A stretch of DNA of 64,000 nt, from the NCBI GenBank assembly GCA_034509925.1, contig CM067529.1, positions 1,914,001 through 1,978,000 of the forward strand, given 5' to 3'. Positions 1 to 63,440 of the stretch are shown in pieces (within the stretch, counting starts at the first letter, position 1; the number at the start of each line of letters is the position of its first letter). The DNA comes from Hirudinaria manillensis (Eukaryota; Annelida; Clitellata; Hirudinida; Hirudinidae). The position numbers were made by a program, and so were the translations under genes. The notes beneath the pieces were generated by a model, which had not been told where the DNA came from, ran no database searches, and saw nothing but the letters and a program-made list of their open reading frames with translations.

Positions 1-41
1 CAAGTTGAAGCGTATCAAATGAAATACTTACTAGCCTTGGG

Positions 42-14500: not shown

Positions 14501-15207
14501 AACTAACTTGACGAATTTGCTTCCTGATTGTCATCCTTTCTGTACAATAGGTCATCAATTTCAAACAACGATTGATCTTTAACATCAGGTAGCGCGGAGC
14601 TGGAATAATAATAATAACGTGATTTTACTGTGTAATTAAAGAATGTTGAAAGTTACGAAATGGGCATTAATGTACCTCAGCATCGTAACGACTTCTTCAA
14701 ATTTTTGTAAACTAGTTTCAGTGAGCTAAAAGGAATTTGTTAATAATATCAGTGTCTGCAAAAAGAAACAGACTATCAAAAGTTACCATCTTGTTGTCCT
14801 GAATCTCACTCCTCAATTCTGTAAAAGTCTTCGCCACTTCAGAAATAGAATTGAAAATTACTTTAACATCATGTTTTGTTGTTTTTTTTGGCTAAATAAT
14901 TTTCTAAATTTATATTATAAATAAACATTTACCACTTAAAATCCCATCTTCACCTTTGTCAGACATGTTATTAGACACTGGAATATACGACAAGATATTA
15001 TTCATCAGTACCAACTCTTAATTTAATTCAAAACAATAAATGATGCTCTATTTTGTTTGACTTTCATAATAATTATAAGTTTACAAGATCCGAGTAACAT
15101 CATCAAATAATTGCAAAAAACCAACTCAATTACATGCGATAAGTGCGTATACTTTTACGATCAAAAACGTCCTGTTGCTGTTTGAATCTCTCATTCGCAA
15201 TCGTGCA
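11600..15207 (-). CDS. Repeated unknown gene, copy R3
   Basis: Third copy, almost identical to R1 in its coding exons (same conserved 97-residue exon, same D-rich exon, same terminal exon). Stop at 11600-11602; the first exon begins at 15207. R3 is the only left-array copy that also has the upstream exon at 16438-16563, so it is the best left-array candidate for a complete transcription unit. The AATAAA-type signal after the stop, conserved across copies (reverse strand, near 11545), supports a real 3' end. Function unknown. Confidence 0.7.
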
Positions 15208-16437
15208 CTGAAAATAATAAAAGATACTAGGAATAAGGTTAAAATATTTTCAAAAATATAGGGAAGTTAAAATAAAAATAAAAATAAAAATGCTATATGA
15301 AAAAAAATATTACGAGTGCATTAATAATTAATTGAGGTGGGTCTGGTATGGATAACCGTTTCTAAACTCTAATAGTGATTTGGCCGATCAGATCGATTAA
15401 CGGGAACCGGTTGGATCACTCAGACAGCCACTAGGCGGTATCAGAAAATAGTTCCGAGAGGTCTAGGGACCAAGGAGAGGTACCTTGTAATAGGGCGGCA
15501 CTTTTCGATTAATAACCACAATGTAAAGTTTGATCTTTGATTGCACTCCTATAAAAATAAATATAAAGGATTTCTTGAATTTTGAAATTCATGCTGTCAT
15601 CGGGATATCAACGAGAATGGGTCTGAAATAGATCGTAAGTGGAGAAAAACGAATATCATCCTTTTTCTCAAAAGTCAGCTTTTGAAATGAGCTCCTGCTT
15701 TTTGTCACCAAACCATTGGGAACCTTTAGTTCTATTTAATTTCTTACACAGAATTTGAGGAAATGCATATTTTGCTGAACCTTCCTCCCTGCTTGTTCGT
15801 GACAGTCTATATTTACTCAGCCAAAACAACCCGGGTGGCCGCCCCGGACCTTGAGGGCACAGCATCGGTTTTGTCCCGACGGGGGGAGCATGAAACATAT
15901 GCGACCTGCCCTCTAATCCGTGAATGATCTTAGAAAGACAGGCGTAACTCCGCCTATTCGCTTTAGCCGTTAATTCGTGAAAACTCACACCAAATAGCCC
16001 CCAAGATTATTTAGTGAGCATATTCAAGTTAAATAACATCGTCTGAACCATCGACTAATTTAGCGCGAAAACTAAATAACGTCAATTGTTTATCTGCCAA
16101 GACAGGAAATACGCCTTTAGCCCTTGCAGGGCCCCCGGTCTATATTTCTCGAAAGGCTCTATCATGCCCCAGGGCAAACGTTTTTTATGGACGAACCCCA
16201 ATCAAATAATATAACTGTTCTCTCTATAACTCTGAACTGTAGGATGAATACTGCAGTTGTATAAATATATATATTTTATTACAGGACCAAAATAACATTT
16301 ATTTACTGCTTGTTTGTATTTCTCAGCGCAAACATCGCAGTCCCGGCTACTTCTCAATACAGCCATGTAAATGTGTCACAGGTGTTGCATTTGGAATTTC
16401 AAATCTTTAATATTCAAGCAGTGGGGAGTGTAATTAC

Positions 16438-16563
16438 TTTTAGTAAAAAATCAAGCAAATTCCCTGCAGGAAGCACAGCATTCTTCTTTATAATATTTAC
16501 AGAAATTTGACGCAGATTGGCGATAGAATCCGCATATGCTGATCTTGTCTCCATACTCACATC
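16438..16563 (-). CDS. Upstream small-ORF exon, R3 copy
   Basis: Exon between a TTTCAG acceptor (16564-16569) and a GTAATT donor (432-437 of the 16 kb segment). An ATG at 16554-16552 opens a 39-codon frame (METRSAYADSIANLRQISV... LLDFLLK) ending in phase 0. Splicing it to the exon that starts at 15207 continues the frame as CTIANERFKQQQDVFDRKS and stops at 15130, giving a 64-residue helical, hydrophilic protein. The same two exons exist in the right array (58169-58285 and 59543-59620). I recognise no family. The alternative is that this is 5' leader sequence of the larger downstream gene. Confidence 0.45.
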
Positions 16564-16758
16564 CTGAAATTTGTTTTTATTTCTTTGTTTATATTTTTAT
16601 TAATATTATAAAAAATAATTTAATTCAAATTTAATATTATAGTCCATTTTTATAAAAATAATTACGTAATTAAGATTGAAATTAGTGTAATTGCCTGCAA
16701 CATCTTAGAACGTGTTTTTATTCAAGTAAAAATTCCAAGTTTAAATTTTAGCCCAAAT

Positions 16759-17049
16759 CAATTTATAAATAGTATTATATAACTTATTAAGATTGAATTC
16801 AGAAATTAATTATGTTGCATACACGACTAAAGAACTGATGTAATTTTTTTGAAAAATTGTCTTAAAATGAAAGGAAATCATTAAAAAAAAAGATAGAAGG
16901 TTCATAAAGTTTAGCATTGTAAACATGTATGCAAATGTAGACAATTGAAATAAACTATATGAACATGTGAGCGACTAATAGATTTAGTTGTAAGATCTTA
17001 CAAGTCACGACTTGCGAGTACAGCAAAGATATTGTAACTAATTTTCAAT
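16759..17049. other. AT-rich spacer between array and single-copy block
   Basis: Homology to the repeat unit stops near 16758. The following ~290 bp is AT-rich and shows no gene, repeat or recognisable site. It marks the inner edge of the left array. Confidence 0.6.
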
Positions 17050-30800: not shown

Positions 30801-31076
30801 CATTCAATGGACAGGCGAACGTGTGGACAGCGAATCCGGGTTTATAAAGGAGGGCAGAGAAGAAATTTTATCATTGTTTGCTCTACCGAGGCGGTCCTTA
30901 GGACAATGTCAATTTGTTCTAGTGTCGTGCTAATACTCGCTGTCTCCGCTTGAAATTCTCTTCTGAGTTTCAAAATAAACAAAGCTGACCGGAAGCGAAC
31001 TGTTTGCGCAAGTTTTTAGCCATCGGTAGAGGGCAAACTCTCGAAAGGAATTTACATTGTTTGCACGTTCTCAAAG
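27873..31076. other. Intergenic region upstream of FoxA
   Basis: About 3.2 kb with no supported gene; several short frames lack homology or splice context. It is the likely cis-regulatory territory of the FoxA gene. Two TGTTTGC sequences close to its start (about 30874 and 31055) match the forkhead-site consensus and could be autoregulatory, but such sites are common by chance. Confidence 0.5.
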
Positions 31077-33266
31077 ATGTTTGCCTCCCCACAAGGAAGC
31101 GATGATCAACTGCTGTTGTTGTCGGAAAGGGGTGGAAAGATTCCAGTCATTTCGTACGAGGTCGACTATTGTACTGGAGAAAGTCGCCTTTCCAGAAACT
31201 TTCAGGGCAACTCCTATCACAACAATCTAAATAGCAACGACAGCAGCAGTAACAACACCAACAACAGAAATCCACACGACTTTCAGTACGCATGCGAGTG
31301 GGACGAAGGCCAAGACTCGCCATCAATCCTAAGCGCTGGAAACAACAAAGATGGGACGTCATCGAGCGATAATTCAACCAGTGAATACTTCCAGTCAGAT
31401 AGGAAGGAACCTTCGTCGTCTGAGAAATTCGACTCCGGTTTGTACGCGAGACATTCTTCAGGCTGCGTACAGTCCTACTCAAAGTATTTCGAGCACGATA
31501 GTAAGATTTCCGCTTACATCGGAAGTTCTGCCGACCACGACAGTTTCAGATCTCTGTGTTGCACCGACAATCCATACGTCGACCCTTTCACGAAGTCCTT
31601 CCAAACGGCCTCAGAAATGGTTCCTTACTATCAATCTATCACAGATGCCAACAGTTCGGAGGTCATCAGATGCTTCAAGAACGAGAGCGCTTTCCAAGGT
31701 CAGCAGTACGTCGGTCTAACGCCGAATTCTGTTTGCCCTTCTAATTCAGCCCGAAACTACACCCATACCAAGCCTCCATACTCGTATATATCTCTGATCG
31801 CCTGGGCAATCCAATCCTCTCCCACAAAGATGTGCACACTAAACGAAATCTACACCATGATCACGGAACTCTTCCCGTTCTACAGACAAAACCAGCAGCG
31901 CTGGCAAAACTCCATCAGGCACAGTCTCTCGTTCAACGACTGTTTCGTCAAAGTTTCCAGATCTCCTGACAAACCTGGAAAAGGCAGCTACTGGACTCTT
32001 CATCCGAACAGCGGCAACATGTTTGAGAATGGATGCTACCTTCGCAGGCAGAAAAGATTCAAATGTCCTGCCAGACAAGCCATCAAACAGGCCCAGAAAC
32101 TTCAGCATCAGCAGCAACTCCAAAAACATTCCAAAACTGATCTACCAGTCAAGTCTGAAAACGACGATATTACCAAAGGCGGAGGACCGAGCAAAGGTTC
32201 TAGAAGTCGAACAAATCCAACGAGAAATAAAAAGGTGAGTGACAGTGAAATGAATTTGAAAACATGTTTCGTTGAAGCCGATTCCAGTGCTTCGGTCATG
32301 GAATCTGAGTTTCAAAATATGAAATCAGAAGAGCCGCTAAATCAGATGTACAAGTCCAACAAATCTTTCATGGCCGGGGGTCAATCGCCGGACGAAATTG
32401 CATCGAAATCTGACGGAGAATCAGCCTGGCAAAAGTTCTCACCAAACATGCAAGGCAAAGGCAGTTCGACAAAGAATTACTGTTTCTCCAAATGCTACTC
32501 GGGAAGTGAGGCTCTACCAAGCGGTGCTGAAGTGACAGATTTTGTGGTCTCGTCGACAACGAGCGGCCAAGTTTCAAAGTCCTTTCCAAACTGCACCAGC
32601 TCTGCTTTTCCAGATTTCGCGGACGAGTCAACGGAGAAACGAGTAAATAACACTTCTCAGACGGAGAACGAATTTTCAGATTTATCGTGCTATCCAAAGA
32701 ACAAACAGGAATATTCTTATGGCTTTTCAGAAGCCTGCAGGACATCTTATTGTCAGGGCAACGATTCAAAAGAACGAGGCGTCAACAACAGCAACAATTC
32801 ATTTTCTTGTTACATAAACGTCAACAACAACATCTTCAACAACAACATCGTCCACAACAATTTCCCCGGGTCACCGTGCAAATCCAGAGACTATAATTTC
32901 CCATCGAAACCTTATTTCTACCAAAACGTTCTGAACTTTCCACAGACTAATGTCTCATTTTATTTTCAAAATTCTACCAACTACCATTTGAACCCAGCAG
33001 AAAGTTCTGCCACCGATGCCGATTATTTTTGCCAATCTTCCGGTTCCGTTCCATCCAATTGCAAATATTTTCCAGCTTCTCAGCCATCTTTCTTCACCAA
33101 ACATCACCATCCATTCTCCATCACCAGTCTCGTCTCTGAACTCGATTTGGAAACGTTTAGTGATAAAATATCACGTCTAGAAGAGGCAAAGAACTATCAA
33201 TTACTTTCTGGTCCGCAGTGCCAACCGCCTCAAGAATGGTTCAACAATTGGAACCAAAATAACTGA
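31077..33266 (+). CDS. FoxA: FoxA-family forkhead transcription factor
   Basis: Single open frame of 729 codons with no intron. The forkhead DNA-binding domain is at residues ~232-331: [89 protein letters not shown]. The last segment is diagnostic of FoxA/HNF3. A C-terminal [15 protein letters not shown] at ~693-707 matches FoxA conserved region II (HPFSI). FoxA factors are nuclear pioneer transcription factors for endoderm, foregut and pharynx. The N- and C-terminal arms are long, rich in Ser and Asn (runs such as [13 protein letters not shown]), hence the length compared with ~450-510 residues in vertebrates. IAWAI replaces the usual ITMAI in helix 1. The start at 31077 is the first ATG of the frame. 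Confidence 0.95.
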
Positions 33267-35417
33267 CCATTTCTCGTTCCGGATGTTATTAATATGTGTA
33301 ACTTTATCCATTTATTTCTGTTAATGTTTATTTACTTGTATTTTTCACGATTTCATGATTTCAGACATAAATTAATCAAAGTTAAAATATTGTTTTAATA
33401 CTTTGGATGTATTCATAAATGATTATTTATAAACGATCTCTTGTCATCAAATAATCGTTTTGTTCAAAACCAGTGGATTGTGCTAATCGTTCCATATTTA
33501 TCCAACTCATAAAACTCGGTTCGTTGCTCCAATCTCCAGCAGTAAGAACTCACGATCAATGGGATTACTCCAGATAGAGAAGATAATCAAAACCTGTTAC
33601 ATTCTTTAATTTCTTTCATCTCAATCCTTGAACGACGAATTCTCTTGAATGACCACGTAACTGGATTAAAATACGCCGCCAAGCAATAGGACAAGATTGC
33701 TCTTTTCACATTTCCGTGACTAGAGGGATCCCTTTGTTTTCGACTCTGCGGGTTTTCTCCTGAATAACGGCAGTAAGCAAACGCACGCACACAACTGCAA
33801 GTAATAAATCTCATTAGATCCATATTTATTTTACAACTACAATATTTCTATCTTAATTTTCTCATATTTTTAAAACTAACCATAAACACGAAGTCGGATT
33901 AACTAGCGATTTTAATCGGACGGACTTCGCTTATCGTGAAGGTTTTCTAATCATTTCCAGAATGGAATTGCAAAAAGTTGGGAAGCGAAATGACATCTCT
34001 GAGCGTGCAATTACCTCGTTAGCGGTCAGCAGAAATCCTGGCAGATGCAATAAGACCAAGTATAATTGTGACTTACGGCCGACTCGCTTATGCAAATTCA
34101 TGGCACCTGAACAATGATGTTTCATTAACTTGCCGATCTAAACTATAATCTACATCTTCTTGGTGATGTCTTACGGTGAACATTTCTTCAATCTTTCTTC
34201 TTTTTCTTATATTAAATTTTTCTCGATCAGACATTTAAAATATTCCAATAATTGGGAAAAAATGGAAACTATCATCATCATCATCATCATTGTCGCTCCA
34301 CTTTTATCTCTGCTGAGATTAAAATTTAATCTTCATGACTTTCAAAGGACAACGCATTGGATGGAGATTATGAAAGCGTTGAATGAATTCCGTTATCGGC
34401 AAAGGACCAACTCCAAGTCGGTCATTGTGGATGAGTGGCAAGTGTCCAGGATCGTGTCTTGGCTGGTAATGAACGCCCTCCTTCTAATTTAGCTCTAAGC
34501 CTCATTTTATCGACATTCTCATTGAATATCACTGATTGAAATCATCATTATTATACTTCCTGTAAGGTATCCATTTTTCGATCTTGTCTTAAGGTAGTAA
34601 GAGTGATTCACTTTTAATTGCATTTGTAATTTTACAGTTTGCAAAAGACAATCTTCATGATTAATTAAAGAAATTAATAATTTTCTGTTTCGGCTGAAAT
34701 TTCCGAACCCGGAACCGATGATTGGAATCTGGATGACCACGAACCGGACGCGTTCAGTGACATTCGAGAGTCCATTCTCAGGCGGATAACATCTTTGAAG
34801 ATGCCAACAACAATCCCGGATTAGGAAAAGCTTTCAAAATGTTCTCCGGGCAGCTCTCATAAGTGGAATTCATAAAAACCGGATTCAATGAAATTTGCCA
34901 AGATTTTTTGAGAATAAAGTTTCATATTTCGTTTAAAAATTTGATCAGTTTATAAAATTATTTATCCCTGTGCATTCAAACAAATGAATAAATAATTGCT
35001 TCATAGATTTATTTATTCATTTGCAACTTCAAAGTGTGATCTTCAAAACATGAGTGCTAAAATAGGCAAATAAGTTCAGATATTCTACTGCAACAAATGT
35101 CAAAGTCCAGCCGCCATGTCTCATTTGAATTGAAGGCTTCGATTCGTTAAACAATACAGGTACGATTCTTGTGTGCGCGCACACCTGACTATTTTATATC
35201 GACCAAGAAGGCAAGCTCGTTATTACTTTTCGTTCCTTTGCTATTTCTACTTGAATTCCTGGCATGAAAAGGCTCGATTATAAGAATTATGATTTCAATA
35301 ATTAATTCGTTAAAGATGATTTATTCAACTTTTCAAAACTGGATATTTTAAATCTATCGAGCGAACTTGGACTAAAAGTATCATCAAAGGAACTTTGCAA
35401 AAGAATCACACTTAGAA
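33267..35417. other. Intergenic region with weak exon-like segments
   Basis: Follows the FoxA stop and includes its 3' UTR. A frame at 34160-34492 with a simple ATC repeat (Ile run) and a short acidic frame near 34690-34830 (WNLDDHEPDAFSDIRESI) look mildly protein-like. I could not join them by good splice sites and recognise no family. Nothing else is evident. Confidence 0.4.
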
Positions 35418-36938
35418 ATGTTGTTGACTCTTCACAGGGTGAATGTGATTCCACGTGCTGATGATAGAAATGAACACCTCTTCATCTTCTCTTTAGAAAA
35501 TGCTCACAAACTTTCCATCGAACCAAAAGGCGTTGAAAGCGAAGCCTTCAATTACGGAGGGACGGACTGGTCCCTTGTCTGCGCCAGAAAAGATGAAAGT
35601 CATCTCGGGATTTTCCTGAAGTGGAGATACCCCGATCCTTGCAGTGCAATGATGGTTTCTGCCAAAACTTCCTTCTCCATCTCGGTCAGACACCAACACA
35701 GATCCAGCGATTGCGCAACGTTTTCCTCCAACCCGGTCTTTTCGAGTTCTCAACCACTTCTTGGAAAGTCGAAACTCCTTCCACTCAAAGAGTTTCTCGA
35801 CCCTGCACAGGGTTACCTTGATGGAACAGCCAGACAAGCGATGATCGAGTTGAGAATGATTGAATGTTCGTTCGGATTTGAAGCCACTGTCGACGTGTCC
35901 AGTAAGAACAGGACTCGCAAAAATGCCGGTGGGGTTTACTTCGACACGAACACTTTTCTTCTCGCCAACCATCGATGGTTCCTCAGGTTTTATACAAAGA
36001 AGCTTAATTCTGGCGGACTACCAGCAGTCTATTTATATCTCCACGGAGGTTCGCAAGGGATTTCTCTAGATTTAAATTTCGTCCTCATTTTGGGAGACGA
36101 CAGCACCGAAATGCTCGGTTATGAATTTGGAGAAGGTGCAAAATTCGATGGTTTCGGCAAAACCCTTTCCGACCAGTTCAGCAACCCTGACAAACTGACG
36201 GAACTAAACGTGGCCGTCGACATAACTCAAGTGGCGGTCTACAAGTTAGTCTTTCTGAAGCTTCCCACGGCTCAATCAACTTCCTCGAGAAATCTGCGAA
36301 AAAGTCCTCTGTTCTTCAATAAATCTCCTGCAAGACAAGTGTCCAGAGACAGACTTCCAACTCCGACCTTCAACATGAGCGATTTAAGTCAACAGGTCTT
36401 TCAGGATCACTATGGAAATCCTTGGAAAATTGAATTTCTAAGAGACGCACCTCAAGAATACAACAATTCCACTAATGTCGTTTTCGAGAAAGGGGTTTAC
36501 CACTACCAAAACAACAAATCGAAACTGGTTTGCGTTCAACTTCTGCTCATGTCACAGAATCTGGATTTGGCTCAAGACGTCACAATGAGTAACCCACTTC
36601 TCGTTTGCTACTTTTCCAATTCACTGGACGAGAAAGGATATCCCATCTCGTTTCCAGTGAATCCCCAACACGTAAGTAATTCAACTTTTCCGATTTAATG
36701 TAATGCGGACCTTTTCTATCTAGAGAAGCTTCTTAATGGTACGTGGTTAAATGAACAGCTTGCAGAAGAAAAGTTCGGATACTCAAATGAAAATGGTGAA
36801 GTGCTCATTAGGATCGACTTGATATCCGTTCAGACGTCATCTTTTCCAGTGAGATCTGGACCAAAATTCGATTATCTCGTAAACTATCAGTTAGAGAAGG
36901 AGGGGTTGGTTTGTTCAATGACTCGAAAATCGATTTAA
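35418..36938 (+). CDS. Protein with three MATH (TRAF-C-like) domains
   Basis: Exon 35418-36671 (418 codons) is joined by an 87-bp intron to 36759 onward. If the frame runs on it stops at 36938; otherwise it splices at a GTAAAC donor after 36878. Three MATH-type beta-sandwich repeats are visible: residues ~15-150 (EHLFIFSLENAHKL, FNYGGTDWSLV, HLGIFLKW, LLPLKEFLDPAQGYL), ~165-290 (HRWFLRFYTKKL, VYLYLHGG, ending LNVAVDITQV), and ~325-450 (GNPWKIEFLRD, FGYSNENGEVLIRIDLIS). The HRWFLRFY and PLKEFLDPAQGYL patterns are typical of the fold. MATH domains bind peptide partners in TRAFs, meprins and SPOP-type proteins. No RING or BTB domain is visible. The next exons downstream belong to an OAS-like enzyme in the same orientation and may be part of the same gene. 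The start codon is uncertain; an acceptor-like CACAG lies just inside the frame. Confidence 0.75.
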
Positions 36939-37195
36939 TTTCATAGTATTATTTTAGATTGCTTGTAAACGAGAATGAAATGAAGTTCTAATTTGAAGTT
37001 TTAGTCTTAATTACTGAGTAGAAAACTAATAACACTGAAGCTTCAACAACTTAAAAGTTTCAACATTCTAACCTAATTACGCGATGTCACTATTTAACAA
37101 ATATGAAAATGTTAAAAAAAAACCCAGAATGAAACAGCATGTAATTTTCTTTTGGTTGATCTAATTAATATTTAGTAAGTTATTAATTAGTATTT

Positions 37196-39831
37196 ATGTT
37201 GAATGACTTTAATGAAATGTTTGAAATTACTTCTATGTCAAGTATCAATGTACAGCCCAGTGGAAATATGAACAAATCCCTGAAAGACATGTCTGCCTCT
37301 AGAGCTTCTCTATCCATTTTGGACGAAAGACCTCCTTCTGACAGCTCAGGCAGTCATCTTCTGACCCCGAAAAGTGGCAGTGACAGTTTCAACAGAACAA
37401 AATCAATCGAGAGTTTATTGGTACGCAAGTATTTGTAAAGTTATTTGCTGATAAAGCTATATAATTCTGATGTAATAACGTTCATTGTTTCTTTGAGTAA
37501 GCAGTCTCTCAAATCTTTGTTACTTATGAACGCCTACTGAAATACAGTAGTTGAATTTAAAATATTCAAAGTACTCTTTCACCTGCTTTGTTCTTGACTC
37601 TGCTTGAAATCACCAGCATGTAATGGCTATGTGTATGGCCAGAGTATGTGTGACGGTTTTATACTGATAAACTTCAATATTTGACAATAATTATCTCGCA
37701 GGTATATTTTATTTTTTTGTGATGCATGCTAGTTTTCACGAATTTCACGCAAGTTTTATTTTATCTATAAAGTATCTTTTAAAAAATCCGAGGGAGTTTC
37801 TCTACTTTCTTTTAAATTTAAATCTCATTATACTACATATTCCTTCTTATAAGAGTTCAGGACATAGTGACACAGGTGTTAACCATTCCGCAAAAAGTCC
37901 TCCGACTAACTCTTTCTTCTTGGAGTTCCTGCAATGTTTGGGCAACCACAAAGAAGATATAAACACGTGGACGTCCAGGGTGATTCCAAAAAAAGCAGAT
38001 TCTTTGAAGAACAACAAACCTGCTGTTCTGTCTGCTCTGTTCGATGAAGTCACGATGGTTAAGCAGGCGAGGTGTGATATTCGGGAGGAACAAAGGCAAA
38101 AAGAAATGGTGGACATTTTGGTACCGTTTCTTGAGGTAATATTGTGATCTTTATTTTTTCCTGTTTTAAAAAATTGCTACAAATGATACTCACGGTTTCG
38201 GTTTCATTCTGATCGTCGTGTTTGATTTTACCATTTTCTATATTTTGGCACTTTTTGATAAAACAGCAAAAGTTTCCCCTACGAGTTTCGGAGATAATAT
38301 TATTGGGCTCTTTCGGAAGTGCAACAACTACGGGAACAAGAAGTGATGTGGATCTTGTCATAGTCAGTGCAGGTGGTGTATGATTTGCATTCCAGTCTGA
38401 AACTAGTTATTCTGATTCTCTGAAATGTGTTCTGCACAAATGGAAAACCCATGTTGCGTTGGCCTCCATTCCTATGTTATCATTTTTATCATTGATAAAA
38501 AAATTAGTTATTCTATTTATAAGTCGTATTTATAAGTAGTATATGGAATATTAATAGAAAAGTTTAGCATAAAAAATTCTCACGGTCTTAGATTCAGTGA
38601 GAAACTCGTTATTTGAATCACTACCCGAATCGCATTACAACTCCTACAGAATTTTCTAAATTTCGATCATGGTTATCGACATATTGTAAAATTTGTAAAA
38701 ACATTACCAATTAAATCGCATAAAGTAATCGGATATCGTAAGATCCATATAATCCTACAACAATTATAATAATTAATTTAATGAATACCAACAGATCTAC
38801 CAACGGAAAATCATAAATCGTGGGTCATACCTCTCCTACAAACCTTGAGGAAACTTCTGGAACAGGCCTCTATTTTTGAGGCATCCATTTCCTCTCTCAA
38901 TTGCACCTCCTTTTCCACCACAAAGTCATCCCTCCAGTTTACATGTGACGACTTCTTGGATGTTGATATTTGGATAAGTCACGATTGGTCGAACGTCGAC
39001 GACTCAAGAAATGGAAACGGCCGAAACCATAACGACAAATCCGGTCTCCTTTTCGAGTTGACGGGACAATACCCACATGATTACCGTTTCTTTGAAATGT
39101 GTTCTGCACAAATGAAAGTGATGTTCTTCAATGAATTGTCCCTTCAGGTAATTCACTCTATGGATGTGTTCGAATACTAAATACTGTTGTCTTGATTTCT
39201 TTTGATTTCAGACGAAAGAATATATCAAAGTTGTAAAAAACTGGAGAAATGCAGTAAGGTGGACAAAATTCGAATACCGTCCAGATAGTTATTTAATTTC
39301 TCTACTAGTCATCAAAGCTACCCAGGATATTAACGAGTCGGTTTTTCTTCGTTAAAGAATTCCTAGTAAAGATAATAAAAATTAACGACTATTTATTCGA
39401 TCCTAGAAGTAACCTCATAGGCGTATTGCAAAGGATCTACCAGTATCTCAAAGAGCCAGAGTTAAGGTAACTTGATCCCGAATATCAGCAAATCTGCATA
39501 ATTCTTTTAAATATTCATATTTTCCGCTAAGTGATACTTATTAACAACAATAATTACTAATATTAACTAGCATGGCATAAGCAAGATGAACGTCATAATA
39601 GTTATGAATAATTTTATCATAAAATTTAAAACGATTTTTTTTTGTCGAAGGATTGTATGGGATAAATTCTACGACCGCGAAGTAATAGAAAAATTCGAAT
39701 TTGAACCCCCAACGCCTCTTGTACAGGATCCAACCAACCCTGCAATTAATGTCGCCAGTAGGTTGAAGTATTGGGGACAATTCAGAGGAGAATATAGGAA
39801 TTGGATGAATTTTCTGAAAATTACGACTTAA
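37196..39831 (+). CDS. OAS-family nucleotidyltransferase
   Basis: Exons 37196 (or 37256)-37420, 37854-38135, 38267-38372, 38795-39147, 39212-39340, 39372-39466, 39651-39831, all in matching phase; ~456 residues from the ATG at 37196. The nucleotidyltransferase core has the GS...DxD motif (GSFGSATTTGTRSDVDLV) with two metal-binding Asp, and a third acidic strand in CDDFLDVDIWISHDW. The OAS C-terminal helical domain follows: TKEYIKVVKNWRN, YRPDSYLISLLVIKATQ, and the diagnostic end PPTPLVQDPTNPAINVASR with a following W. OAS enzymes make 2'-5' oligoadenylate when activated by double-stranded RNA in antiviral defence; invertebrate members are less studied. The N-terminal Ser-rich ~75 residues are atypical. 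Ligand and product cannot be told from sequence. Confidence 0.85.
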
Positions 39832-40560
39832 AACAGTAGACTTACTAATAAATGGTCTTGTCATTTTACAAGTTCACACCATCGCAATAGAACCTAAATA
39901 AGTTGTCGACACTAACAAATCATATATATCTGTAACTGAACGATCTCAAACAATAAATTTATTGTACCATTTGATTTTTGAGAGTCAAAACAACTTCACA
40001 AAGTAACTTCTATGTATGTATAGTGTTTGGATTGCGATGACTACAATTTATGAGGACCGGACCTTCAAATTTTTCTGCTTAGAATCCCCAAGATATGCAA
40101 GGCATGCTACGGTTTTAACCGAGATTAATTTCTGTCCATTAACTTCATGTCGTATTGTTAAGAAATAATACTTATAATGCCTTCTGAATTAAATTTTGAG
40201 CTCAATACCTTTGCTTTTTAAATATAGCCATAGGATAATTTTGATCAATTGTTTTGCTTTTATAATGGAATAAACTTCCAGAAATATCCATAATAGTGAA
40301 ATTCCCGACTTTTCAAGTCCATGGAATTACAGATAAAGTGATCGATTAAATATATTTAATAAATGTTTTTAAAAAATCTATTGAAAATTTTAACAAATTA
40401 CGACATAAACATTAGCAAACTTTTAAAAATTTAAAAGTGAGGACGTTACGTTGGGTTTCGGGTCTTTGGTAGTTTTGCTGTACGAGCTTTATTTGTGTTG
40501 GCTGGTCTTCCGTTGACGATTGGTTCTTTCTTCTCTCACTATTATTTTTCGCCATTAATT
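39832..40560. other. Intergenic region and PSMD3 promoter
   Basis: No gene seen. It carries the 3' end of the OAS-like gene (AATAAA-like signal near 39952) and the 5' leader of PSMD3. An in-frame extension of PSMD3 exists upstream of its ATG, but only through non-ATG codons. Confidence 0.6.
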
Positions 40561-43385
40561 ATGACGAAAGAAGATATCAAGGATGTTGAAATGAAGGATG
40601 CTGAAAACAAGGATGAGGTTTCGGAAGGGTCAAAGAAAGACGTTGATTCCCTGGTTTTGGAAGGTGCACAGTCATTCACATCAATTCTGGAATTTACAAG
40701 TCACTTCACACTGACTTATGCATAGTAACCTCTATAACAACCAATGGATCACATGATAGCAATATTTTTAGAATTTTCTGCAGAATAAGGGCCAAACTTT
40801 CTGCTTTATTTGCTCCATTAGTGATGTTTTAGGAGAAACATACAATATTTCTCTGTTGCTGCCACCTACTTTTAAATGCTTGTGATCATCTTGCATGGCC
40901 TGTATTCTTGTAACAATTAAGCTAGGATGTTACATAAAGTGAAAGCAAATTATTAAAATGCTACAATTTTAGGCTAGAATAATGTGCTTCCAAACTTGCT
41001 GCTAAAGTTTGGACTATGTAGTGTGTCCTGAAACTTCATAAATGGCTACTCTGGCATTGATTGCATTGTTGATTATAAATGATGTTTTGGAACATATTTT
41101 GGATGATATAATTCTGAAATCAGTGAATAATCCCGTGTTCATCTTACATTCATCTCATTCTTTTCATTCCAGACCTCAAACAGTATGTCCGCCTCATTGA
41201 GAAGGCAGTGAGTATGAAGGAGCCGAGATTCATGTCCAGGACTCTCAGAGCCCTTGTCACACTGAGGAAGAGGCTAACTTCAAGCATCCTGCGGAAGGCT
41301 GTAATTGGTTATTTCCTACCAGCGGGTCCCAATTCTGGGAAATGTCCATTGTTGGAATTTCTCGAGGAGGTAGGATTACAATTATCCTTTGTTTTGTTAT
41401 TAATTCAGTAATCGAGAAATTATAATATTTTATCAAGCCCATGGATGGCTTTGAAAAGAGTCAGACTTTTAGGCCAAGGACTGGAAAAGCAGCTTCTGGT
41501 CCTCTTTTGATAGAGACTGATGTTTACTTACATCTTCTTGTTCTCATCTTTCTTCTTGACCAGGAGAAATACAGATGTGTAAGTGTTTTTTATAATCCTT
41601 ATTTTCTACTTCATGACTTTAATGGATATCGATATTTTTAAAGGCTTTGGAATGTGCTAATCAACTGATGGATAAAATAAGTACTCAGAATAGAAGGACA
41701 CTTGATATGCTGGCTTCAAAATGTTACTTTTATTATGCAAGAGCCTATGAAGTGACCAATCAGTTGGACAAAATTCGAAGGTAATGATTGAAAATTGTTT
41801 GGCTACTCAGAATTTAGCTGTAAATCCATTCATTTTTCTTATTAAGCACCCTACATGCTCGTCTCTGTACGTCCACCCTGAAGTCAGATTTTGAGGGTCA
41901 GGCCACCCTCCTCAATCTTCTCCTGAGGAACTACTTGCATTACAATCTCTATGATCAAGCTGCCAAACTTATTGCCAAGATCAGCTTCCCTGAGACTGCC
42001 TCCAATAATGAATGGGCTAGATTTCTCTATTACACAGGTACAAACTTTAACATAAACATGGGCATTTTAATTTATCTAGTAGCTATTAGTAGTTTGAGAT
42101 TTCAGACAGTTCACATTTACAGTTTGTCTTTTAGTCATTTGTCTGCAACATTGCATTTGCATGGAAAATTATTGTATAATGTTACCATCAGTACTTGCAG
42201 TCCTTTGTGGCTTTATTGGTAAATGTGATTATGTTTCAGGTTGCATAAAGGCTATCCAGTTGGATTATTCATCTGCACATAGGGATCTCATGCAAGCTCT
42301 GAGGAAGGCACCTCAGCATACTGCTGTTGGCTTCAAACAAATTGTAAGACTTTGCATTTACTCATGGCAATTGATGTAATGTTTCCAATTAGTAATGAAT
42401 TTTGTTAATCTAGGTCCAAAAATTTGCCATCACTGTGGAACTTCTCCTTGGTGATATTCCTGACAAGGCAATTTTCAGGCAACCCTCTCTGAGGAAAACT
42501 CTTCAGCCATACTTTCAGTTGACTCAAGGTTCTAATTTTTTTAATAATCCTTGACTGTAATGAAGTCGCATTAGAAAATGGACACATGTTTATATTTAAG
42601 GTGTTTTTTAACATTAATGAATCAATTAATTAATTATGTAATTACTTAAATGCAGCTGTTCGTACTGGAAATTTGGCTAACTTCAACCAGGTGCTTGAGA
42701 AATTCAAGAACAATTTTGAGCAGGATGGAACATATACTCTGATAGTGAGGTTGAGACACAATGTCATCAAGACTGGAGTCAGGATTATCAGTCAGTCTTA
42801 TTCTCGCATATCACTTGCTGATATTGCCAAGAAACTGCTCCTTGGCAGTTCAGAAGATGCAGAGTTTATTGTTGCTAAGGTCTTTAACTTATTATTATTA
42901 ATTACAAGAATTTGATTCTTTAAAAGTTGACAAATAGCTGTACCTAACCATGCTCGTGTTCATTTGCAGGCAATCCGTGATGGTGTAATAGAGGCAACGA
43001 TTGATCACGACAAACGATACATGCAGTCCAAAGAAAATCCGGATGTTTACAGCACTAAGGAGCCAATGGGTGCTTTGCATCAAAGAATAACTTTCTGCTT
43101 AAACATTCACAACCAGTCTGTCAAAGTATGTTTCCTTTTGTTGTGACATAAATCATCAGGTGATTATTTTATTCCAAATAACTTTGTAGGCCATGAGATT
43201 TCCACCTAAATCATACAACAAAGATTTGGAGACAGCTGAGGTTAGTTTGGCTTAACAGCAGATTTATGAGCCTATACTTATACTATAAAATACCTATTTA
43301 CATTTAATAGGAGAGACGTGAAAGAGAGCAACAAGAGCTTGAGAGTGCTAAAGAAATCGCTGAAGAAGAATTTGATGATTTCTAG
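40561..43385 (+). CDS. PSMD3: PSMD3/Rpn3, 26S proteasome lid subunit
   Basis: Eleven exons: 40561-40663, 41173-41369, 41438-41578, 41644-41780, 41847-42037, 42240-42343, 42414-42528, 42656-42879, 42970-43125, 43190-43240, 43311-43385; 1494 nt, 497 residues, phases all agreeing. It is a structural PCI-domain subunit of the 19S regulatory-particle lid. An acidic/lysine N-terminus ([19 protein letters not shown]) is followed by [46 protein letters not shown]-like helices ([35 protein letters not shown]), the PCI domain (about 41-42.9 kb exons: [34 protein letters not shown]) and a charged tail ending FDDF. It is slightly shorter than the human protein (534) because the N-terminus is shorter. The next gene begins 408 bp downstream on the same strand. 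Confidence 0.96.
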
Positions 43386-43792: not shown

Positions 43793-44602
43793 ATGGGTCT
43801 CCTTGATATCGAGGCGTTGGATAAGAGTGCTGGTGGCTTAAGTCTTAAAATTTCGAATTTAGACCAATCCGGAGTTTTGAACGATAAGTGTATAAAGCAA
43901 ACTTTTCGAAAGAGAAAAAACTTCAAAAGATCTCAACATCATTTCATTCCCAGAGAAAGCAGAAGAAGCCTTCCAGGAAGGAGACCTGCTAGGAGAAGGG
44001 AAAATTTGCAATTTCTACTGTCTTTGGTCGATGGTTATGAATTTGATGAAACTGCAAGCGTCGATTTATGCGATTTGATTGATCAGACTGCATCAGCTTT
44101 TACTCAATTATTTTTAGAGGACGAAAAAATGGCAGCATGGCAAGCCTTTGCTGGTTCAAACGAAGATCAGCAAAATGAATTTCTAATGAATGTTTCAGGT
44201 CCCCAGATTGATAAAAATAACTGGTTGAATTTTCAGACTGTTGAACGTTTGCCTAATGGTGAGCCCAATTGTTTTAAACAGTGCCAGTGTGCATTCTCTA
44301 AAATCAGCTGCAAACTCAAGCACTTCTTAAGTCGCAAGCATGTTCCAAAAGGGGACCTGTCCAAGATTGAGGAAGATCTGATAGCATTCTTTGTTACAAC
44401 TCCCAATTCAATATACAAAGCTAATCTGCCTTGCAGCTTCCAAAGATTGCTCACTCATGCTGTGAGCCAATACTTGGATTTAGAGGCTAAGACATTCAGC
44501 CATACTCAGGGATCTAAAGAAATTCGGGTTGAGACAAAAAGCCAGGGATTCAAACACCCAGGCATGATGCTTGTCGACTATCTGGACCTTGTCAAGTTAT
44601 AA
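43793..44602 (+). CDS. R3HDM4: R3H domain-containing protein 4-like
   Basis: Single-exon frame of 269 codons. A conserved N-terminal basic region (FKRSQHHFIPRESRRSL and PARRRENLQFLLSLV) is followed by a helical middle and a C-terminal R3H-type segment (EDLIAFFVTTPNSIYKAN then LPCSFQRLLTHAVSQYLDL). R3H domains bind single-stranded nucleic acid. This arrangement matches animal R3HDM4, whose function is poorly known and which is probably nuclear. The canonical Arg-x3-His is less clear here (SFQRLLTHAVSQY gives R-x3-H). The first ATG was used. An AATAAA motif follows at about 44873. Confidence 0.8.
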   Translation: MGLLDIEALDKSAGGLSLKISNLDQSGVLNDKCIKQTFRKRKNFKRSQHHFIPRESRRSLPGRRPARRRENLQFLLSLVDGYEFDETASVDLCDLIDQTASAFTQLFLEDEKMAAWQAFAGSNEDQQNEFLMNVSGPQIDKNNWLNFQTVERLPNGEPNCFKQCQCAFSKISCKLKHFLSRKHVPKGDLSKIEEDLIAFFVTTPNSIYKANLPCSFQRLLTHAVSQYLDLEAKTFSHTQGSKEIRVETKSQGFKHPGMMLVDYLDLVKL

Positions 44603-51028: not shown

Positions 51029-51544
51029 TCTCGATAAATTCCTCACGCTTAACACTCAATAGAATAAACCGGCGAGAAGAATAAGCTCTAGATTCGGTTG
51101 CGAGAAGGTTCTACGTCTATTATCACAATTTAAAAATTAAGTAAAACTAAAAACTAAGATATATATAATTTTTAAAATTTAAATCACATTATTAATAAAT
51201 AATATGGAGGTGGTTGCTATGGAAAGTGGTTTAATCGCACATAAATTTCAACTTCTTTTGTAATTAAAAACAAAATTTTAAGTGTTATTACATTTTAAGC
51301 TTGAAAAATATGTTTAAGTTTATATGCTGCGTAGAAAAACTATAATTTTCAAATGAAAAGTTCAGTTCATTCCTCTTAGTCGATTATAACTTACCAGTTC
51401 TCTTCTTGTGGACCCTGTGATGTTAGTGAAATGGGACATTGTGGAACAGCTTCTATTCACTAAAATCTATTCACAATATATTTGTTCCATCCATTCTTAC
51501 TGTATGCCGCCACAGATTGTGAATTCAAACCCAAGAAGATTTCA
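51029..51544. other. CCT1 upstream region
   Basis: Promoter side of CCT1, running into the retroelement remnant. The first 100 bp has several CG dinucleotides; the rest is AT-rich. No gene is evident. Confidence 0.5.
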
Positions 51545-54085: not shown

Positions 54086-57000
54086 AGACAAGTTAAGATT
54101 TAATCCGTTGGAGTATATATGTCCAACTAGATATCCCTTATTGTTTCTTTTATGTTAGATCCATCATGTGCAGATCATGTCAAAAGCTGATTTTTGCGAA
54201 CAAGGATGACATTCGTTCTCCTCCCCATTCGATCTATTTCAGACCCCTTCTCATTGTTATCCCGATGACAACATGAATTTCAAAATTCAAGAAATCCTTT
54301 AACATATTTATTTTCATGAGACTGCAATCAAAGATCAAACTTTATATTGTGGTTATTAATCGAAAAGTGGCACCCTATTACGAGGTACCCACGTACCACA
54401 CCTCTCCTTGGAACCAAGAAGTCGCTGAAAGATTTTCTCGTACCGGTGGCTATCCAACCGGTTTGCGTTAATCGAGCTGCTCGGCCAAATCACTATTAGA
54501 CTTTAGAAACGGTTATCCATACCAGACCCACCTCAATTAATTATTAATGCACTCGTAATATTTTTTTATATAGCATTTTAAATTTTATTTTTATTTTAAC
54601 TTCCCTATATTTTTGAAAATATTTTAACCTTACTTTTGGTATCTTTTACAGAATTGAGGCGTGAGATTCAGGACAACAAGATGGTAACTTCTGATAGGCT
54701 GTTTCTTTTTGCAGACACTGATATTATTAACAAATTCCTTTTAGCTCACTGAAACTAGTTTATAAAAATTTGAAGAAGTCGTTACGATGCTGAGGTACAT
54801 TAATGCCCATTTCGTAACTTTCAACATTCTTTAATTACACGTAAGAATCACGTTATTATTATTATTCCAGCTCTGCGCTACCTGATGTTAAAGATCAATC
54901 GTTGCTTGAAATTGATGACCTATTGTACAGAAAGGATGACAATCAGGAAGCAAATTCGTCAAGTTAGTTGTAATGGGGTTAATCCGGTACAATAATCCCT
55001 AAGGAATGCCCATCAATATTAACATAATATGTATTTATTTTGGTTGTTTCATTTTAATTTATAATGAATAGTTATAACTTTTAAAACAAATTTTTACGAT
55101 TATTTTCCAAACGCGAGCATAATCAAATTACCATCTTAGCTGCCAGCTTAATCCAGCGGAATATCCGCAGTGGGTTTCCGTTAAAGTTAAATTCGTATTT
55201 TTATGACGATTCATTTTTGAAACAGAAAAATATTCTGAAGATGAGAGCAGAAACATAAGTAGGAATTGTTTTGAAGATTATCAAATTATTTACAATCACA
55301 AGGTAAATGACCAATATTATCGTATGAAATAGAATTTCAAATATAATAATAACCAAATCTACCTTTTCTTGCAATATAACACGATAAGCATTAATATCAA
55401 TACTCAGGTAATGAATGCATGGACACCTCGCGACAATCCCCGCTTTGACAGTACATATCTTAAGCTGCTACAATATCTACCGGACGACGCACCTACGAAA
55501 AAAGTATGCCGTGAAATTTCATGGTTAGTAAAAACAAAGCAAGAAGTCTTATTTTGTAATTAATATTAATTTAAACGAATTTAGGTTATCACTAGCAATG
55601 ATAAAATCACGAGTTGACTCAAAATTGGTTACTGCGTTGAAATTTTTAAAAGTTGCATATAAAAGAATGAAAGAACCCATGCTTACGAGCCTAAGTGGCC
55701 ATTATGGTTTGTAAAATTATTTTCGATGATATAACCAATAATGTTAACTGATAATAAATTGTTACATGTGGTAAATAATAATTTTATTATTTATTTTGTT
55801 TTAATGTTTAAAATATGCGATATATTTAATGATGAAATGCATTGAAATATGAAAAATGAATTTATAGAGTATAGAGTATTTTTATGGCTGACAAATCTAA
55901 GAAAGATTCCTAATGGCAGACATGCTGATAAGAAAAGGATTTCTTGTTGGTTGTCTAAACAAGGTAGGTTCATTAAATTAACTTTTAATCTTTTCAATTT
56001 TCATTCATCTCATAATTCAAACAGCTACCGAATTGTTCCAAATGTTTGACATGAAAGAACTGAAATTACTGCAATTCGATTCGGATTACATCGATGCAAT
56101 GAAAAAGGTTTGAATATTTTTGCACTTCAAAACAATCTTAAGGGGAGTCCATAAATTAAGGGTGACTAAAATTGTGACGGGGGACTGCTGATAAACCTGT
56201 ATATGACCTTATGCAATCGCTTCAGATTTTGCTTTAATCGGTTGCCAAATTGTTAGTTTGGAAGTTTGGTATTTAAGGGAGTGAGATTTATTTTAGAGTG
56301 TGAAATGGGGGAAGGGAATTGAAATGGTTTAAAATAGCGTGCTTTAAGGACTGCCCCTAAAACCAAGCGTAATCATACTATATTGTTATATTCATTCACA
56401 TAAAATTATTTGCTGCTTAAGGGGTGTTCCAGTGTTCGACAAATATATTTGTTTACAAATGCCACTTGTCGGGAAGCAATGTCTTATCACGAGGACGACT
56501 TGTATGAATATTTTATGTCTGCACAAGATGAAGAGCAAAAAGTTGAACGTTTAAAGAATGTTCTTATTGGTATCGTAAAGGTAATATGACCAACATATAT
56601 ACCTTATGAATTAGTTAGAATAATAATTAGAAAATTTTGTAACAATTATAAAATTTATTTATCAAGTTTGATTCAAATGTTGATGATGTTCATCATGATG
56701 GAAGTTCAACGAGGTTCGTTCTTGAACGCTGCCGTACCCTTTTTTCAACATTTCACGGTTATCTAGAATATTTAATGAAGGTGAGTTGAATTACAATTAA
56801 TCACGATTAATTTTATGAAATTAACTATTTAACTTTGTATAGAATAACGATTATACAAGAGAACATTTAAGAGACATAGAAAGACATAACACTTATGTGA
56901 TAGAACCATATCTGCTGAACAATCCAAACCAGGAGGAGATTTGGAGACCTAAAATTAGGCAATTGATAAGTGAGAAATTAAATGATGCAAACTTCCTTGA

Positions 57001-58140
57001 TTATGATAAACAAGCAGCAGACGAACCCGACTATACGATCGAGAAATTTCTTTTTTATGACAACTTTATGAAGAGACTTCATGTTTTGAATATCATTCAT
57101 ACTGCATGCTGCATGAGCGAAGAATTAGTTAAGGTTTTTTTTTTATTTATTTGGAGCAATATCTTTAAGAACACTAAAAATTAATTTATTTTGTGTTTCT
57201 TCACATTATTTTTAAAATTATATTTTACAGTCTGAAGGAACATATTTTTGTTACGACAGTAAGACATTTAGAAGTTGTTATGGATCTACAATCATAAAAT
57301 ATTTGCATAACATTTTTAATGACTCATCAAAACGAGGAGACATTCCTTGGTGGATGGAGACCACCATGAAACATTGGTTAGATTTTTAATGTTTGAGAAT
57401 TCCATGCTTAAATAATCAATCTTTTTAAACATATTGTTCTTAACAGTCCATTCTTGTTTCTGCCAAACCAATTGGATTATCTGATGGAAGATCTTATTAA
57501 GCTTATGAAAGGCGAATACCTGAGTGAGGTAGGATAATATCTGTTTAAAAGTAGAAATATAAAGTCATTTATAATGTCTCAGAATGTTATTTGAATTGTT
57601 TTATCATTGAATTGATGTGTTGGGATTGTAGGTTGCAGAGGAACAAATTTATTTTGCCATTAATGTTTTGTGCGTGGAAGAAGATCCAAAGTAATCTAGT
57701 CATTATTCCGATGGTTGAGCCTGAACTTGTTTTGATTTATCTTGATTTGTAATAAAAACTTTGTAACTTTATGGATTGCACTTGTAAATAATCGTCAAGA
57801 TTCGATGCAATAACTGGTTGTAAATACTGGTTGGGTGTGCACCTAATATTTTGTTGGCCACACTAAAAATAGAGACATAAAAAATATCAACGTCATCATC
57901 ATAATGCAGACATCAATAGTTAGCAACATGGTTAATTCATTTATTCCCATTTTTGTTTTCTTCAATGCCCAAATATTTAATGGAGAATGAAGGAAGAACG
58001 CAATTGCCTTGGGCTAAAATTTAAACTTGGAATTTTTACTTTAAAAAAAAACACGTTTTAAGATGTTGCAGGCAATTACACTAATTTCAATCTTAATTAC
58101 GTAATTATTTTTTATAATATTAATAAAAATATAAACAAAG
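54086..58140 (+). repeat. Right-array unit R4, inverted relative to the left array
   Basis: Reverse-complement copy of the left unit. It begins at the retroelement edge with sequence matching the reverse complement of 345-240 in R1, passes through a single ~220-bp block (54180-54415), and runs straight into the gene. The ~0.9 kb that separates the two blocks in R1-R3 is missing, as is the first part of the gene (see the R4 gene). The unit is more diverged from R1-R3 than they are from one another. Confidence 0.9.
54655..57694 (+). CDS. Repeated unknown gene, copy R4 (5'-truncated)
   Basis: Plus-strand copy lacking the two most 5' exons: the sequence jumps from the upstream region (tggtatctttta) directly into the coiled-coil exon near 54650. 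The 3' exons remain open and in phase: PWTPRDNPRFDSTYLKLL (55420-55530), the K-rich helix exon, RKIPNGRHADKKRISCW (55895-55960), YHEDDLYEYFMSAQDEEQ (56480-56580), the variable exon at 56670-56780, the 97-residue conserved exon at 56842-57133, and the last exon ending VLCVEEDPK with stop 57692-57694. The terminal residues differ from R1-R3 (CVEEDPK for YMEEKQK). It may be a pseudogene because of the 5' loss, but there is no stop in the 3' exons. Confidence 0.6.
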
Positions 58141-58168
58141 AAATAAAAACAAATTTCAGGATGTGAGT

Positions 58169-59620
58169 ATGGAGACAAGATCAGCATATGCGGATTCTAT
58201 CGCCAATCTGCGTCAAATTTCTGTAAATATTACAAAGAAGAATGCTGTGCTTACTGCAGGGCATTTGCTTGATTTTTTACTAAAAGTAATTACACTCCCC
58301 CCCCCCCGCTTGACATTTTTAAATATTAAAGATTTGAAATTTAAATGCAACAGCTGTGACACATTTACATGGCTATATTAAGAAGTTGCTCTTCAATGGA
58401 AATCGAAGTTAGCGCTAGAGCCGGGACTGTTATGTTTGCACTGAGAAATACAAACATCCAGTAAATAAATGTAATTTTGGTCCTGTAATAAAATATATAA
58501 CTGTGTTATTCATCCTACAGTTCAGAGTTATAGAGAGAACAGTTATATTATTTGATTGGGGTTCGTCCATGTTATATCGTTCAATCGTAAAAAATGTTTG
58601 CCCTGGGGCATGATAGAGCCTTTAGAGAAATATAGACCGGGGGGCCTGCAAGGGCTAAAGGCGTATTTCCTGTCTTGGCAGATAAACAATTGACGTTATT
58701 TAGTTTTCGCGCTAAATTAGTCGATGGTTCAGACGACGTTATTTAACTTGAATATGCTCACTAAATAATCTTGGGGCTATTTGGTGTGAGTTTCGCGAAT
58801 TAACGGCTAAAGTAAATAGGCGGAGTTACGCCTGTCTTTCTAAGATCATTCAGGGATTAGAGGGCAGGTCGCATATGTTTCATGCTCCCCCCCGTCGGGA
58901 CAAAACCGATGATGTGCCCTCAAGGTCCGGGGCGGCCACCCGGGTTGTTTTGGCTGAGTACAAATAGACTATCACGAACAAGCTGGGAGGAAGGTTCAGC
59001 AAAATATGCATTTACTTAATTTCTGTGTAAGAAATTATATAGAACCAAAGGTTCCCAATGGTTTGGTGACAAAAAGCAGGAGCTCATTTCAAAAGCTGAC
59101 TTTTGAGAAAAAGGATGATATTCGTTTTTCTCCACTTACGATCTATTTTAGACCCCTGCTCGTTGATATCCCGATGACAGCATTTCAAAATTCAAGAAAT
59201 CCTTTATATTTATTTTTATAGGAGTGCAATCAAAGATCAAACTTTACATTGTGGTTATTAATCGAAAAGTGCCGCCCTATTACAAGGTACCTCTCGGAAC
59301 TATTTTCTGGTACCGCCTAGTGGCTGTCTGAGTCATCCAGCCGGTTCCCGTTAATCGAGCTGATCGGCCAAATCACTATTAGACTTTAGAAACGGTTATC
59401 CATACCAGACCCACCTCAATTAATCATTAATGCACTCGTAATATTTTTGTTATATAGCATTTTTAATTTTATTTTTATTTTAACTTCCCTATATTTTTGA
59501 AAATATTTTAATCTTATTTCTGGTATCTTTTATTATTTTCAGTGCACGATTGCGAATGAGAGATTCAAACAGCAACAGGACGTTTTTGATCGTAGAAGTA
59601 TACGCACTTATCGCGTGTAA
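58169..59620 (+). CDS. Upstream small spliced ORF, R5 copy
   Basis: Exon 58169-58285 (ATG to a GTAATT donor, 39 codons, phase 0) joins exon 59543-59620 after a TTTTCAG acceptor and stops at TAA. The predicted protein has 64 residues, charged and helical (METRSAYADSIANLRQISV; ANERFKQQQDVFDRRS). The intron of ~1.26 kb contains the conserved element and the repeat block. The frame is also open in R3 with the same splice sites. No family was recognised. It ends ~160 bp before the ATG at 59784, so it could be a separate cistron or a translated leader of the larger gene. Confidence 0.4.
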
Positions 59621-62600: not shown

Positions 62601-62950
62601 CCTTGGTGGATTGAGACCACCATGAAACATTGGTTAGATTTTTAATGTTTTAAATTTCCACACTTATATAATCAAACTTTTTAAACATATTGTTCTTAAC
62701 AGCCCATTCTTGTTTCTGCCAAACCGATTGGATTATCTGATGGAAGATCTTATTAAGCTTATGAAAGGCGAATACCTGAGTGAGGTAGGATAATATCTGT
62801 TTAAAAGTAGAAATATAAAGTCATTTATAATGTCTCAGAATGTTATTTGAATTGTTTTATCATTGAATTGAAGTGTTGGGATTGTAGGTTGCAGAGGAAC
62901 AAATTTATTTTGCCATTAATGTTTTGCACGTGGAAGAAGATCCAAAGTAA
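59543..62950 (+). CDS. Repeated unknown gene, copy R5
   Basis: Full-length plus-strand copy. The first exon begins at 59543, an ATG at 59784 opens MSDSSEDGILS, and the stop is at 62948-62950 (ending VLHVEEDPK). Exon order is as in R1. The acidic exon is at 61675-61838 (GCSSVRQIYLF; YHEDDLYEYFMSARDEEQ), the variable exon at ~61922-62038 and the conserved exon at 62097-62390. The variable exon reads DDSNVDDVHRYGISTRSF, very different from the R1 version yet the same length class and open. As in R1, the junction from the MSDSSEDG exon to the coiled-coil exon does not keep one frame, so the translation start is uncertain. A poly(A) signal (gtaataaaaac) follows the stop near 63005. No family was recognised. 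Confidence 0.65.
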
Positions 62951-63440
62951 TCTAGTCATTATTCCGATGGTTGAGCCTGAACTTGTTTTGATTTATCTTG
63001 ATTTGTAATAAAAACTTTGTAACTTTATGGATTGCACTTGTAAATAATCGCCAAGATTCGATGCAATAACTGGTTGTAAATACTGGTTGGGTGTGCACCT
63101 AATATTTTGTTGGCCACACTAAATATAGAGACATAAAAAATATCAACGTCATCATCATAATGCAGGCATCAATAGTGAGCAACATGGTTGATTCATTTAT
63201 TCCCATTTTTGTTTTCTTTAATGCCCAAATATTTATTGGAGAACGAAGGAAGAACGCAATTGCCTTGGGCTAAAATTTAAACTTGGAATTTTTACTTTAA
63301 AAAAAACACGTTTTAAGATGTTGCAGGCAATTACACTAATTTCAATCTTAATTACGTAATTATTTTTATAAAAATGGACTATAATATTAAATTTGAATTA
63401 AATTATTTTTTATAATATTAATAAAAATATAAACAAAGAA

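Follow-up and report, generated by a model that had tools for sequence, protein, structure and literature searches.

Does a single gene of the leech Hirudinaria manillensis join MATH domains to an enzyme of the oligoadenylate synthase (OAS) type, or do two separate genes lie next to each other? The question arises from a 64,000-nt stretch of contig CM067529.1 (GenBank assembly GCA_034509925.1, positions 1,914,001 to 1,978,000 of the forward strand), hereafter the window, whose own numbering is used below unless a genome position is given. A first-pass annotation described a MATH frame followed on the same strand by OAS-like exons, and the open frames and domain profiles we find agree with that arrangement. 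We judge the chance that both parts belong to one gene and one transcript to be slightly better than even, mainly because the stretch in front of the OAS exons is more intron-like than the leech 5' flanks with which it was compared.

The MATH frame opens at 35376 on the forward strand, has its first in-frame ATG at 35418, and runs to a short intron near 36672. Exon 1 (35418..36671, +) holds a firm first MATH unit, a weak second one, and the beginning of a third MATH-like stretch, which seems to be completed by exon 2 (36726..36938, +). The latter ends in the stop codon 36936-36938, so that the end at 36938 given in the first-pass annotation is borne out. The intron between the two exons (36672..36725, +; donor GTAAGT) has alternative boundaries at 36676-36723, and its 54- and 48-nt versions both keep the frame, with an in-frame TAA inside. 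Pfam MATH_2 matches the whole MATH protein at 4.5e-10, above the cut-off, and no Pfam domain besides MATH was detected in the frame. Of the three MATH domains that had been proposed, the first is recovered by itself (6.2e-8), the second only weakly (0.15, under the cut-off and covering half of the profile), and the third has no Pfam match; units 2 and 3 are thus a reading by eye, and just the first is statistically firm. Searches of the MATH protein against PDB with phmmer gave matches at E values of 1 or worse, or none, and the AlphaFold model of the MATH exon is unusable (mean predicted local distance difference test score, pLDDT, of 32). The MATH identity given here is that of the sequence profile.

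Scored in nats with a coding model trained on leech sequence from elsewhere in the genome, MATH exon 1 reaches +81 over 1173 nt (scored from 35499), and exon 2 stays near zero in each of three parts (+1.5, -1.1, and -1.6). Whole-genome searches (148,429,096 bases, 23 contigs) were run exon by exon, a procedure by which distant relatives may be missed. With the MATH protein as query they returned one match, the protein itself, and no paralogue; a search for the MATH family returned 10 matches, one of them this locus and the other nine TRAF-, SPOP-, or otherwise MATH-like by reading.

Upstream of MATH, the stretch 35314..35438 (+), SAP-like by eye, is a possible alternative exon or else 5' untranslated region (UTR). 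It has no in-frame ATG and no Pfam match, and its coding score (-3.5 nats, scored as 35315-35440) stands against -11.8 and -14.1 in the other frames. A candidate phase-1 intron of 58 nt (35439-35496, +) would join it to MATH, with a donor of 6.8 bits and an acceptor of 5.3 bits on splice matrices that are small, being built from 27 Ras-family leech introns (63-1327 nt) placed by protein alignment. The MATH gene model is not final, because the introns of 54 nt (inside; 48 nt in its other version) and 58 nt (upstream) all fall under the 63-nt minimum of those 27 introns. In 35264-35438 the frame upstream of MATH reads MKRLDYKNYDFNN, a stop, and then the SAP-like DLFNFSKLDILNLSSELGLKVSSKELCKRI.

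The OAS-like gene follows on the same strand in seven exons, the first near 37.2 kb and the last ending with its stop at 39831, all with GT-AG boundaries and the frame kept. Exon 1 (37261..37420, +) encodes a Ser-rich linker and is followed by exon 2 (37854..38135, +); exon 3 (38267..38372, +) carries GSFGS...TRSDVDLV, with SDVDLV at 38342-38359; exon 4 (38795..39147, +) carries the third acidic motif LDVDIW at 38956-38973; exon 5 (39212..39336, +) contains TKEYIKVVKNW; and exon 6 (39407..39466, +) leads to exon 7 (39651..39831, +), which reads PLVQDPTNPAINVA up to the stop. An AATAAA lies 16 nt past that stop (39847..39852, +), and a second one at 39952. Both enzyme parts named in the first-pass annotation, the nucleotidyltransferase core and the OAS C-terminal domain, are recognized by Pfam: NTP_transf_2 at 2.3e-5 (25.1 bits, cut-off 21) and OAS1_C at 2.6e-9 (37.4 bits, cut-off 19.9). 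OAS1 chains in PDB, which we take to be pig (1px5) and human (4ig8), are matched at 1.8e-11 to 2.6e-11. Coding scores are positive for exons 1-4 (+3.5 to +10.5 nats) and are -2.4, -0.1, and -6.3 nats for exons 5-7, yet these last remain above their own other two frames. In the whole-genome protein search all seven OAS matches were the locus's own exons. A genome search with the Pfam OAS1_C profile missed even this gene, so its absences carry no meaning, and a scan of viral contigs found no OAS relative. Directly after OAS lies PSMD3, a subunit of the 26S proteasome (40561-42222; Pfam 2.1e-31 on the 41.8-kb exon, start placed by reading).

Where the OAS frame begins bears directly on the question. 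An ATG at 37196 was considered and rejected, because 37196-37255 scores as noncoding and is low in GC. Its coding score is -6.2 nats, compared with a 5th percentile of -2.2 among 682 overlapping 60-mers from the locus's own MATH and OAS exons, and its GC content is 0.267, compared with 0.442 in 37256-37420. It follows that the OAS exon begins at an acceptor (37256 or 37261) or, if OAS is a separate gene, at the in-frame ATG 37268..37270 (+), which would give a protein of 419 aa. We compared the sequence before that ATG with the flanks of 19 Ras-family starts of the leech genome (20 loci were fetched, one of them without a start). The 310 nt before ATG 37268 have a GC content of 0.265 and 3 CpG, and 19 of 19 Ras-family flanks are higher in GC (0.277-0.484); in the last 100 nt the value is 0.25, the lowest of the 20 flanks. 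The flank of the start read as PSMD3 (ATG 40561) has a GC content of 0.37, with 7 CpG in 40400-40549. The stretch upstream of the OAS exon therefore looks more like an intron than like the leech 5' flanks compared, which fits a splice from MATH and also a 5' UTR intron.

Which splice sites could join the two parts? The 27 Ras-family introns (L059-L078) show that leech donors are loosely defined, with GTTAAC, GTTCAA, GTCGGT, and GTTTAA among them, and that the pyrimidine tracts of the acceptors are weak. The junction first proposed, 36878/37256, is rejected as the likely one on its site scores and on shuffling. Its phase-0 donor GTAAAC (36879..36884, +) is weak, at about 2.3-2.4 bits, and as CTC/GTAAAC after 36878 is equalled or beaten by 214 of 556 decoy GTs; its TACAG acceptor, ending at 37255, scores -1.1 bits and is equalled or beaten by 404 of 533 decoy AGs; and the best in-frame pair of a dinucleotide shuffle reaches the same level in 1160 of 2000 cases. 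The product of this junction would also be 892 aa long rather than the roughly 894 residues that had been given.

Better sites are present nearby. Another phase-0 candidate, GTGAGA (36849..36854, +), reaches 4.8 bits, and the best donor candidate is the phase-2 GTTGGT (36905..36910, +; GAGGG/GTTGGT after 36904) with 8.0-8.1 bits. Together with the acceptor AG of CCCAG/TG (37259..37260, +; exon from 37261; 5.1 or 2.7 bits by matrix), this donor forms the best in-frame pair among those whose exon begins upstream of ATG 37268. The junction 36904/37261 reads ...QLEKEG/GNMNKSLKDM... and gives 900 codons including the stop, and the intron of this favored fusion model (36905..37260, +) would measure 356 nt, with a GC content of 0.264 and 5 CpG. 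Skipping of MATH exon 2 (36671 to 37256, in frame, 841 aa) is not favored, as exon 2 seems to complete a MATH-like stretch; a home-made gene finder chose this skip and also ran OAS into the PSMD3 exons on poor splice matrices, and its output is not used as evidence. A usable junction is little beyond chance here, and the splice sites permit a fusion without proving it.

The weights we attach to one gene, two genes, or an operon-like pair are judgements and not computed values. A single gene is made plausible by the low GC of the gap, by good in-frame donors of leech quality in the last MATH exon, and by the lack of AATAAA or ATTAAA within 330 nt after the MATH stop, a range in which two control genes of the window (OAS and an R3H gene) do have AATAAA. 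That annelid operons are reported absent and that OAS matches only its own exons in the genome add to this plausibility. Several observations weigh against it. The MATH frame is closed by an in-frame stop at 36938, the in-frame ATG 37268 has an A at -3 and lies 7 nt past the best acceptor, and the pair 36904/37261 is reached in 263 of 2000 dinucleotide shuffles. The difference in GC is small (0.265 vs. 0.277), three of the 19 Ras-family flanks have no more than 3 CpG (0, 2, and 3), and upstream of one Ras-family start (L040) lie 150 nt that are far richer in AT; equally AT-rich windows also occur at about 40120-40460, in the intergenic sequence from OAS to PSMD3, and near 51040-51440. Finally, the FoxA gene of the window likewise shows neither AATAAA nor ATTAAA in the 330 nt after its stop, and four weak AATGAA variants lie between the MATH stop and the OAS exon.

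The chance of two adjacent genes, to our judgement, falls somewhat short of even: a MATH gene of about 488 aa would end at 36938 and an OAS gene of 419 aa would start at ATG 37268, the latter either having its own promoter or beginning with a 5' UTR exon that lies in the gap or within the MATH gene. The clean stop and the in-frame ATG near the exon start are as such an arrangement would have them, an AG stands directly before the ATG in 5 of 19 Ras-family starts, and 5' UTR introns may be common. Close neighbors occur as well, the OAS stop and the ATG read as PSMD3 being 730 nt apart, with sequence between them that is in part just as AT-rich. However, the gap between MATH and OAS is only about 330 nt with the lowest GC of 20 5' flanks, so a promoter there would be unusual, and it is without AATAAA or ATTAAA. 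Very improbable, in our view, is an operon-like or trans-spliced pair, in which a precursor would be cut into two mRNAs and OAS given a spliced leader at 37256 or 37261. An AG does lie 7-12 nt before the ATG, as expected of a leader site, but the AG directly before the ATG is found in only 5 of 19 Ras-family starts, and a passage of PMC7854359 concludes that the annelid Dimorphilus has neither operons nor trans-splicing, "similar to other annelids". An Rfam scan, covering this window only and not leader RNA genes elsewhere, gave no matches.

If MATH and OAS do form a single gene, one transcript would encode the MATH units, then the Ser-rich linker, and then the OAS-type nucleotidyltransferase, about 899 residues in all, and splicing would most likely use 36904/37261 and not the sites first proposed. 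When the donor at 36904 is left unused, the same gene may also give a shorter product that holds MATH alone and ends at 36938.

What would such a protein do? OAS enzymes are known mainly as vertebrate sensors of double-stranded RNA (dsRNA), and their trigger in invertebrates is largely unknown. In the alignment with OAS1, leech GSFGSATTTGTRSDVDLV lies against GSSGKGTTLRGRSDADLV with the SDxD pair kept, and LDVDIW lies against VEFDVL with the third aspartate kept; we take GS...SDxD and this third aspartate to be the OAS catalytic residues. The leech OAS should be active, judging from the retained SDxD pair and third aspartate. By contrast, the two OAS1 stretches that presumably contact dsRNA in vertebrates are altered: the basic VSKVVKGGSSGKGT reads VSEIILLGSFGSAT in the leech, and QRDFLRNRPTK reads KVMFFNELSLQ. 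The predicted isoelectric point (pI) is 5.7-6.3 for the 419-aa OAS protein and three shorter versions. Because basic residues common to the solved OAS1 chains are replaced and the pI is about 6, the dsRNA sensing suggested in the first-pass annotation is not supported, and activation by dsRNA in the manner of vertebrate OAS1 is improbable for the leech enzyme. The loss of these residues does not exclude it from the family, because sponge OASs are independent of dsRNA (PMC6307210).

The product may differ as well. The AMP-acceptor residues of OAS are S186, T190, and Q193 (PMC6307210), letters that fit the numbering of chain 1px5_A, and these positions read E, A, and K in the leech; because of this, the product may not be plain 2-5A. 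Since the acceptor site is different in sponge OASs too (PMC6307210), the altered site bears on the product and not on family membership. In the mechanism we propose, the MATH units would bind a partner or a stress ligand and thereby cluster or place the enzyme, which, with its catalytic aspartates intact, would produce a second messenger in the form of 2'-5'-linked oligonucleotides or related ones. Tentatively, then, MATH-OAS could pair its MATH units with an acidic, catalytically intact enzyme from which the dsRNA-binding face of vertebrate OAS is gone, and binding of a protein or ligand to those units, in place of dsRNA, would switch the synthesis of a second messenger.

As for possible downstream factors, the genome search for the 2-5A-ribonuclease (KEN) domain gave three matches lying close together on one contig, two of them above the cut-off; these are taken as one gene, IRE1, and hence no RNase L is seen. 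An exon for a STING ligand-binding domain lies at genome C10:268000-268200 (28.8 bits, cut-off 27), and on this match the leech may keep STING.

Elsewhere in the window, a forkhead gene (31020-33266; Pfam Forkhead 1.5e-35), labelled FoxA-type by reading, and a gene with an R3H-associated domain (43793-44602) are present. Tandem repeats occupy both ends, with three copies of about 5.45-5.5 kb on the left (1-16800) and two copies of about 5.25 kb on the right (54600-64000). The two arrays are mutually inverted, with 90-98% identity in the 25 longest arm pairs listed, and the open reading frame that they hold, about 122 aa long, matches nothing in Pfam. Among the 20 Ras-family loci, L042-L048 (C1, C11, C4, C12, C9, and C13) comprise four Rab3-like and three Rab39-like first exons (labels by reading), i.e. 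several copies of usually few-copy genes. In keeping with DNA of a leech, a cluster of hirudin-family exons lies at genome C4:12236592-12249728; contig 4 has eight matches to this family at E values up to 1, seven of them above the cut-off, four of these only together with their neighbors.

How does the locus compare with known systems? The MATH domain is common to TRAF, SPOP, and other MATH proteins and to the leech protein, in whose MATH frame no other Pfam domain was found and for which the protein-level genome search found no paralogue. A search of leech together with oligoadenylate found no title on a leech OAS, and MATH fused with OAS was found neither by a phrase search of the open-licence literature nor in passages of PMC10732462. 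Within that search, the first-pass statement that no example is described holds for MATH-OAS itself, but fusions of adaptors with OAS (PMC8195603) and with cGLRs (PMC9980059) have been described.

The OAS part resembles that of other invertebrates (sponges, corals, and sea anemone), where basic residues are scarce on the dsRNA face of ancient OASs and the sponge enzymes work without dsRNA (PMC6307210); unlike the OASs described there, it is preceded by MATH units and lacks an evident separate start. In animals, TRADD-N is found fused to oligoadenylate synthase (PMC8195603), and the leech enzyme is likewise possibly joined to an adaptor module of the TNF-receptor pathway. In the leech, however, that module would be MATH, which in passages of PMC8195603 appears as the TRAF2 domain that TRADD-N binds and within other TRADD-N proteins, but not together with OAS. 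Some cGLRs carry ankyrin, TPR, or death domains and so offer a similar pairing of an animal CD-NTase relative with a protein-interaction module; among cGLRs, the sensors of nucleic acids are reported to have a pI above 8.5, and other ligands are proposed for an acidic subset (PMC9980059), a comparison made by analogy because the family is other than OAS. The leech enzyme differs in belonging to the OAS1_C family, and MATH is not among the cGLR modules named in passages of PMC9980059. If the single-gene reading is true, MATH would extend the set of adaptor modules described for OAS or cGLR enzymes (TRADD-N, ankyrin, TPR, and death), and MATH-OAS would offer a definite candidate on which OAS signalling triggered by protein could be tested.

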